From Aliterella atlantica CENA595 (lineage in GTDB: Bacteria > Cyanobacteriota > Cyanobacteriia > Cyanobacteriales > Chroococcidiopsidaceae), in the NCBI RefSeq assembly GCF_000952155.1, contig NZ_JYON01000002.1, positions 62,001 through 126,000 of the forward strand: a DNA stretch of 64,000 nucleotides, read 5' to 3'. Position numbers and translations under genes: made by a program. The notes beneath the pieces are model-generated. The model was not told where the DNA came from and searched no databases. It saw nothing but the letters and a program-made list of their open reading frames with translations. Shown in pieces: positions 2,103 to 3,732 of the stretch. The first letter of the stretch is position 1. Each line of letters starts with the position of its first letter.

Positions 2103-2120
2103 TTGCCTGCAAAGGCTGGA
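2103..2120 (+). promoter_or_regulatory. Orphan copy of the array hairpin in the Ro60 mRNA leader
   Basis: TTGCCT-GCAA-AGGCTGGA (2103-2120) is almost the same hairpin as in tRNA-like RNA 7. It has a GCCT/AGGC stem, a GNRA loop, one bulged U and then U-G pairs. It lies 8 bases before the ATG at 2128 and contains the only purine-rich stretch that could act as a ribosome binding site (AAAGG). If Ro60 binds this hairpin in the array RNAs, it could bind its own leader and repress translation. The match is seen; the regulation is inferred. Confidence 0.5.
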
Positions 2121-2127
2121 CAAAGTT

Positions 2128-3732
2128 ATGAATTACAACTTTTTTACTAAAAAACAGTCTGGAACTCCTCAAAATCAGCCTATTCCTGGACGCGACTCAG
2201 AGATGATTAAAGGGCTTTCCAGTGGATATATGTTTGATGGTGGTATTTGGAGTATGCTGCGCCGTTGCTTGCTTATTGGTACAGCGAAAAGCACCTACTA
2301 TGCTGGTAAGCAAGAACTAACAGATGATTTTGTTAGCGTATTGCAAAATGCGATCGCCCAAAACCCCACCCGCGTGGCTGAAGAAATCGTGTATGCTAGC
2401 GATGGTCGCTCTATCAATAACAGCGCTCCTATCTTGGCTTTAGTCTTGCTATCTATGGGCGAAACCAAAGCAGCAAAACAAGCTTTTCAAGAAATATTTC
2501 CTACTGTCATCCGTACTGGTAGCCATTTCTACGAATGGTTGAGCTATACCAAATCTCTACGCGGCTTTGGTAAGGTAGTGCGGGAAGCTGGTAAAACATG
2601 GCTGTCGCGTGAAGATGTCAAAGGCTTGGCTTATCAGCTATTGAAGTACCAACAGCGCCAAGGCTTTACTCACCGAGATGCTTTGCGCCTATTTCACGTC
2701 AAGCCACCTACTGAAGAACACCGTCAGTTGTTTGAGTGGGTAGTCAAAGGCTGGTCAGAATTGCCTAGCGAAATTCCTACCCCTGTACTTACTCAAATTT
2801 GGTGGTACGAATGGCTAAAGCGCAACCCCGAACAAACTCATCGCGCTATTTCCCAAGGACATCTAACTCATGAAATGGCTGCGCCTGTAGGCAAAATGGA
2901 CAAAGCTGCATGGCAATTGCTATTTGCGGAAATGCCTATTGGTGCAATGTTGCGTAATTTGGGTTCATTAACTGAATTAGGCGTACTGCGAACTGATGAA
3001 CGCAATAACTTAAAGCGCATAGAAGATACTCTAAATAGTAAAGAGCGTCTCCGCAAGGGACGCATTCACCCTATCGATGTTCTCAAAGCGCTAAAAACCT
3101 ATAGTTCTGGTGGAAAAACAGGGCGCAGCCAAAAAACTTGGCAACCCGTACCTCGAATTGTAGACATTCTAGAAAAGGCGTTAGAAATGTCTTTTGATGT
3201 CGTAGAACCTACAAAAAAAGTGTTTATGCACGCTGTAGACGTTTCTGGTTCGATGTCTTGGGGTGTGGTAAATTCTGTCGGCTTGAGTTGTTGCGAAATT
3301 GCGACAGCAATGGCGTTAGTAACAGCAAAAGCGGAGGAAAACTACGCAATTCGTGGTTTTTCTACTGAGTTCTGCGATTTGGGTATTACAGCTAAAGACT
3401 CGTTTAGTTCGGCTTTGAAGAAGGCTAGCAACCAAAACTTCGGCGGAACTGATGCTTCTGTCGCTTACGACTGGATGATTAAAAACAAGTTCAAAGCAGA
3501 TGTAATTTGTTTTTGGACTGATTCAGAAAGTTGGGCGGGAAATAAGCATCCTAGCCAAGCGTTAGCGCAGTACCGTCAAAAAGTAAATCCAAATGTCAAA
3601 GCGGTTTATATTACCCTTGCGCCTTACCAATTAACTTTGGTAGACCCTCAAGATCCTTTATCTTGGGATATGGGCGGATTCGATCCTGGAATACCCCGCA
3701 TTATCCAAATGCTGGCTAATGGTGACATTTAA
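2128..3732 (+). CDS. Ro60/Rsr orthologue (TROVE and vWA domains)
   Basis: RNA-binding ring protein of 534 aa, the usual Ro60 length. In animals and bacteria such proteins bind Y RNAs and misfolded RNAs. The N-terminal two thirds is the helical-repeat TROVE module, beginning MNYNFFTKKQSGTPQNQPIPG with the conserved GG(I/F)W segment. The C-terminal vWA domain has an intact MIDAS: D371-x-S373-x-S375 (VDVSGSMSW), T441/D442 (GGTD) and D in FWTDSES. I chose the ATG at 2128 because the upstream in-frame ATG at 2020 lies inside tRNA-like RNA 8. The gene directly follows the eight-unit RNA array, as bacterial Y RNA genes often sit next to rsr. No RtcB or PNPase gene is nearby in this window. Confidence 0.93.
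   Translation: MNYNFFTKKQSGTPQNQPIPGRDSEMIKGLSSGYMFDGGIWSMLRRCLLIGTAKSTYYAGKQELTDDFVSVLQNAIAQNPTRVAEEIVYASDGRSINNSAPILALVLLSMGETKAAKQAFQEIFPTVIRTGSHFYEWLSYTKSLRGFGKVVREAGKTWLSREDVKGLAYQLLKYQQRQGFTHRDALRLFHVKPPTEEHRQLFEWVVKGWSELPSEIPTPVLTQIWWYEWLKRNPEQTHRAISQGHLTHEMAAPVGKMDKAAWQLLFAEMPIGAMLRNLGSLTELGVLRTDERNNLKRIEDTLNSKERLRKGRIHPIDVLKALKTYSSGGKTGRSQKTWQPVPRIVDILEKALEMSFDVVEPTKKVFMHAVDVSGSMSWGVVNSVGLSCCEIATAMALVTAKAEENYAIRGFSTEFCDLGITAKDSFSSALKKASNQNFGGTDASVAYDWMIKNKFKADVICFWTDSESWAGNKHPSQALAQYRQKVNPNVKAVYITLAPYQLTLVDPQDPLSWDMGGFDPGIPRIIQMLANGDI

Follow-up and report, generated by a model that had tools for sequence, protein, structure and literature searches.

What is a near-copy of a Y RNA hairpin doing directly before the start codon of a Ro60 gene? 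The question is raised by a locus of the cyanobacterium Aliterella atlantica CENA595, located in a stretch of 64,000 nucleotides (nt) of contig NZ_JYON01000002.1 (positions 62,001 to 126,000 of the forward strand; hereafter the window, whose own coordinates are used below, all features being on its + strand). Eight tRNA-like RNAs (808-2095), each with a Ro60 motif, precede the Ro60 (Rsr) gene, and a short hairpin (2103-2120) occupies the leader of that gene. We propose that the leader hairpin is probably a translational operator and a mimic of the end at which the nearby Y-like RNAs bind Ro60; through it, the output of Ro60 would be adjusted to the supply of Y RNA.

The leader hairpin and its conservation in cyanobacteria

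The hairpin (TTGCCTGCAAAGGCTGGA; RNA form UU-GCCU-GCAA-AGGC-[U]-GGA) is composed of UU (2103-2104), a stem of four base pairs (bp) in which GCCU (2105-2108) pairs with AGGC (2113-2116), a GCAA loop of the GNRA type (2109-2112), a bulged U (2117) and GGA (2118-2120). The latter is Shine-Dalgarno (SD)-like and continues the 3' strand of the hairpin, which ends 7 nt upstream of the Ro60 AUG at 2128; in relatives, its place is taken by GGAG, GGAGG or GGGAG, right after the hairpin and at constant spacing. The original prediction described the hairpin as nearly identical to that of RNA 7 of the array, and 16 of its 18 positions are indeed the same (TTGCCTGTAAAGGCTGAA, within 1870-1892). It also held that the leader has no tRNA-like flanks of its own, which is confirmed, as all eight array motifs lie upstream of it, with the end of the last array RNA at about 2095.

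The gene itself (2128-3732, 534 amino acids) encodes a protein with TROVE and Ro60 vWA domains. Pfam matches were obtained for vWA_Ro60 (PF25045, E 2e-38) and TROVE (PF05731, E 9e-17), together with matches in the PDB to 2NVO (Rsr, E 6e-73) and to Xenopus Ro (1YVP, E 7e-68); judged by its sequence, the open reading frame (ORF) is a true Ro60 homologue. The Y-RNA-binding stretch retains residues K173, R177 and H190. H190 aligns with H187, the Y-RNA-contact histidine of human and mouse Ro60 (PMC4030889), and is invariant even among homologues of 31-37% identity.

Whether the hairpin is kept in related genomes was the check suggested along with the original prediction, and the answer is decisively positive. 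Ro60 was detected in 108 of 388 genomes of the window's order, and the leaders of 89 loci were taken and read: an equivalent hairpin stands directly before the start codon in approximately 85 of them. An independent scan, partly of the same genomes, gave 80 named loci, all of which likewise carry it; they include Aliterella, Chlorogloea, Nostoc, Calothrix, Crocosphaera and Prochloron. It was also found in another cyanobacterial order (L143, UUGCCC-AUU-GGGC[C]GAGGAG). Among 42 leaders that align without gaps, UU at -28, CC at -25 and GG at -17 are invariant, though they were no part of the selection, and the bases from -60 to -37 are more variable than the hairpin positions. The hairpin is moreover specific to the Ro60 gene. 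A motif rule (U, a stem of at least 4 bp, a loop of 3-8, a C or U bulge, G, then A or G, 3-26 nt before the start) was satisfied by 69 of 90 Ro60 leaders versus 2 of 238 leaders belonging to the other ORFs of these loci (Fisher p 3e-49), and in a second set by 63 of 71 versus 2 of 189.

The stem has also changed in a compensatory manner. Co-change, and not the percentage of paired sites, was used as evidence here, because the finder prefers paired sites. Stem cells in which both sides had changed numbered 23, as compared with 7.5 in shuffles, and none of 500 shuffles reached 23. On the Ro60 protein tree, the 5' side of pair 4, the pair nearest to the loop, changes on 27 branches and the 3' side on 20; both sides change on 13 branches, always with pairing kept, where about 1.6 such branches would be expected.

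These results bear on the idea that the hairpin is a decayed or truncated copy of the last Y RNA without present function. The resemblance to RNA 7 and the location directly after the array would fit such an origin, but order-wide conservation and compensatory changes, while the flanks diverge, do not fit a functionless remnant. In addition, approximately 30 of 95 loci have no Y anchor within the last 140 nt and still carry the hairpin, which is therefore no by-product of the last array RNA. As a full explanation, decay is refuted by the conservation and we regard it as very improbable, although it may still describe how the hairpin arose.

Likeness to the Ro60 site of Y RNAs

The Ro60 site of Y RNAs consists of a single bulged cytidine beside a conserved helix (PMC4726728, PMC4030889). 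Ro60 binding is abolished when the bulge is removed or the conserved bases are changed (PMC4726728). Ro60 makes its primary contact with the bulged C, a base that bacterial Y RNAs retain (PMC4030889). The leader hairpins mimic this site specifically. In common with the array RNAs, they have UU (159 of 173 leaders), a mostly G-C closing pair, and a bulged pyrimidine followed by a nearly invariant G. The bulged base beside the helix, at which the leader finder required C or U, is C in 112 of 173 leaders and U in 61, the window having U. The following base is A in the array RNAs, where it forms a U-A pair, and in leaders it is G in 138 of 173 (U.G) and A in 25. As G replaces A after the bulge-G, the SD sequence GGAG or GGAGG is supplied. 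Leader and array types were compared across lineages by eye only, and no co-variation between them is claimed.

The leader shares with the stem of YrlA (RF02553) and of vertebrate Y RNAs a helix, one bulged pyrimidine (C in Y RNAs) and the strands UUG and C-[C]-G. It differs from them in being an approximately 18-nt, GNRA-closed hairpin in an mRNA leader, with neither the second bulge nor the upper stem nor the tRNA-like domain, and in having U.G in place of U-A, by which the SD is created. In Rfam, no family, including YrlA (RF02553) at the gathering score, matched at the leader.

The likeness is recovered by models built from either side. A gapless model made only from 70 array motifs gave 76 of 90 leaders a score higher than the 99th percentile for Ro60 coding segments, and an Infernal search of 572 kb with the array model placed many leaders among the array RNAs. 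In the opposite direction, a model built from leaders only (R2) was run on the 5.27-Mb genome, in which rank 1 was the leader itself, a training sequence, and four of the eight array RNAs were found among the 11 other matches, at ranks 2, 4, 7 and 11. Three other top R2 matches were examined as possible further targets and rejected: L233 and L234 lie inside ORFs, and L235 is not the leader of any ORF on its strand. The only strong non-array match of the array model (L126) falls in a region whose opposite strand appears to encode an alcohol dehydrogenase. Since the extra matches that were checked are not leaders, a second target gene is not claimed.

Could the element be a structural hairpin of the 5' untranslated region, one that exposes the SD or shields the end of the mRNA without any contact with Ro60, its likeness to Y RNAs being incidental? 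The stem does adjoin the SD, the GNRA loop is short and stable, and at many loci the leader would start near the hairpin once the last array RNA had been processed like a tRNA. However, the invariant elements (UU, bulged pyrimidine, G) make up the signature of the Ro60 site and are not needed in a generic hairpin, and array-only and leader-only models detect each other. The motif is all but absent from leaders of other genes at these loci (see the counts above), whereas the hairpin is found at Ro60 genes of unrelated phages, as described below. A purely structural role therefore seems quite improbable.

Phage leaders and the proposed control of Ro60 synthesis

The hairpin recurs in phages whose Ro-like proteins are approximately 33% identical to the window Ro60. 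In all 12 leaders of Stanwilliamsviridae (Streptomyces phages) that were read, a hairpin followed by [C]-G-A/G stands before the start, and most of these leaders have an SD-like AAGGA just after it. In phages Peebs and Francob, exchanges of G-C for A-U correspond to CUUAUCC..GGGUCGAAG, a form present in the arrays of some cyanobacteria. Several phage leaders (L256, L254, L255, L357, L378, L339 and L334) are also matched by model R1, which was built from cyanobacterial arrays. In IMG/VR, the motif was found near a possible start in 55 of 145 Ro60 loci; with a fixed choice of start, it was present in 39 of 121 viral Ro60 leaders versus 14 of 443 other ORFs (p 8e-18). Upon reading, the hairpin was not seen in the Ro60 leaders of Mycobacterium, Gordonia and Microbacterium phages, nor in those of alphaproteobacteria.

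A Ro60-site-like hairpin at the Ro60 start was recorded in Streptomyces phages L240, L246-L250 and L252-L257, and in viral contigs L329, L331, L334, L339, L357, L378, L382 and L395. The stems of these phage and viral hairpins are strongly varied yet paired, and the pyrimidine-G-A/G is constant.

Taken together, UU, the closing pair, the bulged pyrimidine and G, the two-way detection by models, the continuity with the SD and the recurrence in phages support an operator recognised by Ro60. The original prediction had suggested that Ro60 in excess over the array RNAs could bind its own mRNA and stop translation; the operator part of this idea is now supported and translational autoregulation is its most likely function, while the binding and the repression themselves are what we infer. 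Under this proposal, with Y RNAs in excess, Ro60 would be occupied, and the hairpin would be left free and the adjoining SD usable. When Ro60 exceeds Y RNAs, free Ro60 would bind the leader through UU, the stem, the bulged pyrimidine and G; it would then cover the SD, and translation would fall. Y RNA would relieve repression by titrating Ro60. As free Ro60 would repress its own leader, Ro60 output would follow Y RNA supply. Because the leader copies no more of the Y RNA site than its inner half, with the bulge, and in most species has G for A, it is expected to bind Ro60 more weakly than Y RNAs do, as fits such an operator.

A different use of Ro60 binding can be envisaged, namely that the hairpin recruits Ro60 for processing or turnover of an array-mRNA precursor (with PNPase), or for loading of new Ro60 onto Y RNAs, without translational control. 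The array and the gene lie on one strand with no terminator-like site between them, and Rsr of D. radiodurans is tethered to PNPase by a Y RNA (PMC7790460). Against this, the constant position of the hairpin beside the SD points to translation, the same position is held in phage genes with no comparable array recognised upstream, and the hairpin is retained where a Y RNA does not adjoin. We therefore consider recruitment without translational control an unlikely alternative to a translational operator.

Several observations weigh against the proposed operator. At the window itself, the 4-bp stem is short, the fold of the leader has a z-score of -0.56 and an alternative fold competes with it, so that folding was not used as evidence; moreover, the array-trained covariance model gives the window leader 12.7 bits (E 0.25 in 64 kb). 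The window hairpin alone is thus unexceptional, and the case for it is comparative. Chance likeness, which these weak single-sequence statistics would allow, is refuted by all the comparative tests and is extremely improbable. Within the order, no clear hairpin is seen at four loci (L096, L103, L106 and L108). The leader hairpin of Picosynechococcus is deviant, and by the rule used none was found in four divergent Ro60 genes of the cyanobacterial phylum (31-37% identity; L118, with a Ro60 31% identical, was counted as a divergent homologue). About two thirds of viral Ro60 leaders are likewise without the motif by this rule. Regarding the site itself, about one leader in three has U as its bulged base, the base after the bulge-G is usually G and not the A of the Y RNA site, and the leaders are without the other half of the known site, a three-nucleotide bulge on the opposite strand and a further helix.

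Autoregulatory leaders of ribosomal proteins, such as those of S8 on the spc mRNA and of S15, mimic the rRNA site of the protein. The Ro60 leader would resemble them in that an mRNA leader imitates the primary RNA target of the protein at or near the ribosome binding site, in the weaker site that is expected and in the logic of titration. It would differ in that the protein is Ro60, the primary target is a Y RNA from the same locus, and repression is here a proposal. Ro60 genes also adjoin Y RNA genes in the rsr locus of Deinococcus and the rsr-yrlBA-rtcBA locus of Salmonella. Unlike the control suggested here, the regulation described there is transcriptional, in Salmonella through RtcR-sigma54 (PMC7790460), and no report of a leader mimic was found in the literature searched.

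No published Ro60 autoregulation or leader mimic was found in a literature search with partial coverage of subscription papers. Therefore, although autoregulation by mimicry is known from ribosomal proteins, its apparent novelty for Ro60 and Y RNAs is provisional, also because the main paper on bacterial Y RNAs lies outside that coverage. We lean somewhat towards the broader view that the hairpins form an undescribed and widespread class of cis-regulatory RNA, in which a minimal Ro60-binding hairpin merged with the SD is found in cyanobacteria and diverse phages and Y RNAs would act as inducers; the phage forms suggest an independent origin or great age.

How Ro60 and Y RNAs are balanced in cells is the question that a mimic operator addresses, and the leader hairpin suggests that spare Ro60 shuts off its own synthesis. 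If so, Y RNAs would gain a regulatory role, as inducers by titration. The site of 18-22 nt would help to define what bacterial Ro60 recognises, and searching for its sequence would be a simple way to locate Ro60 operators in further genomes. The question is testable in Picosynechococcus sp. PCC 7002 and Nostoc species, which are culturable, and in Streptomyces phages.

The upstream array and further Y-type RNAs

The array RNAs carry a Y-RNA-type Ro60 stem with a short closing loop in the place of the anticodon arm. RNA 1 (808-928), with tRNA-like ends and the Ro60-site stem replacing the anticodon arm, has its Ro60 motif at 835-857, and is followed by RNA 2 (956-1078, motif 984-1006), RNA 3 (1122-1249, motif 1166-1188, with a partial Rfam tRNA match at 1179-1239), RNA 4 (1296-1427, motif 1344-1366), RNA 5 (1440-1617, motif 1549-1571), RNA 6 (1655-1777, motif 1697-1719), RNA 7 (1794-1947, motif 1870-1892), the nearest match to the leader hairpin, and RNA 8 (1971-2095, motif 2016-2039), which ends just 5' of the leader. 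The ends of RNAs 3, 5 and 8 were set by eye. A -35-like TTGACA (729-734) lies 5' of the whole array; it is a pattern match only and is absent from the list of the consensus promoter scan, whose matches were not clearly more numerous than in shuffles. TTGACA is also present upstream of the arrays in L003, L031, L032 and L033. No terminator-like site was found between 600 and 2250.

The YrlA model (Rfam RF02553) matches the array RNAs only below threshold, and its alignments run from the 3' half of one array RNA into the 5' half of the next. They span the junctions of neighbouring RNAs because the ends of each array RNA coincide with those of its tRNA-like part, and the Ro60 stem, at the position of the anticodon arm, has a closing loop. 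The array RNAs thus resemble YrlA in a circularly permuted form.

Another Y-type RNA closely follows Ro60 at 27 of the 99 loci tested, some 50-200 nt beyond the stop (L031, L032, L034, L048, L061 and others); the window genome has none of these post-gene RNAs. In Picosynechococcus sp. PCC 7002, Ro60 is located on plasmid pAQ7 (NC_010474.1), where three unannotated tRNA-like Y-type RNAs (L239:2390-3000) lie between phnC and the TROVE gene, upstream of Ro60. Broken Ro60 copies, with stops or in split pieces, were seen in G292, G336, G131, G105 and G135, which suggests repeated loss within the order. Finally, the array model also matches viral contigs away from the leaders, at 3042-3064 and 3728-3752 in L378 and at 2122-2146, 2316-2348 and 2387-2418 in L334; from their sequence, these may be viral Y RNAs.
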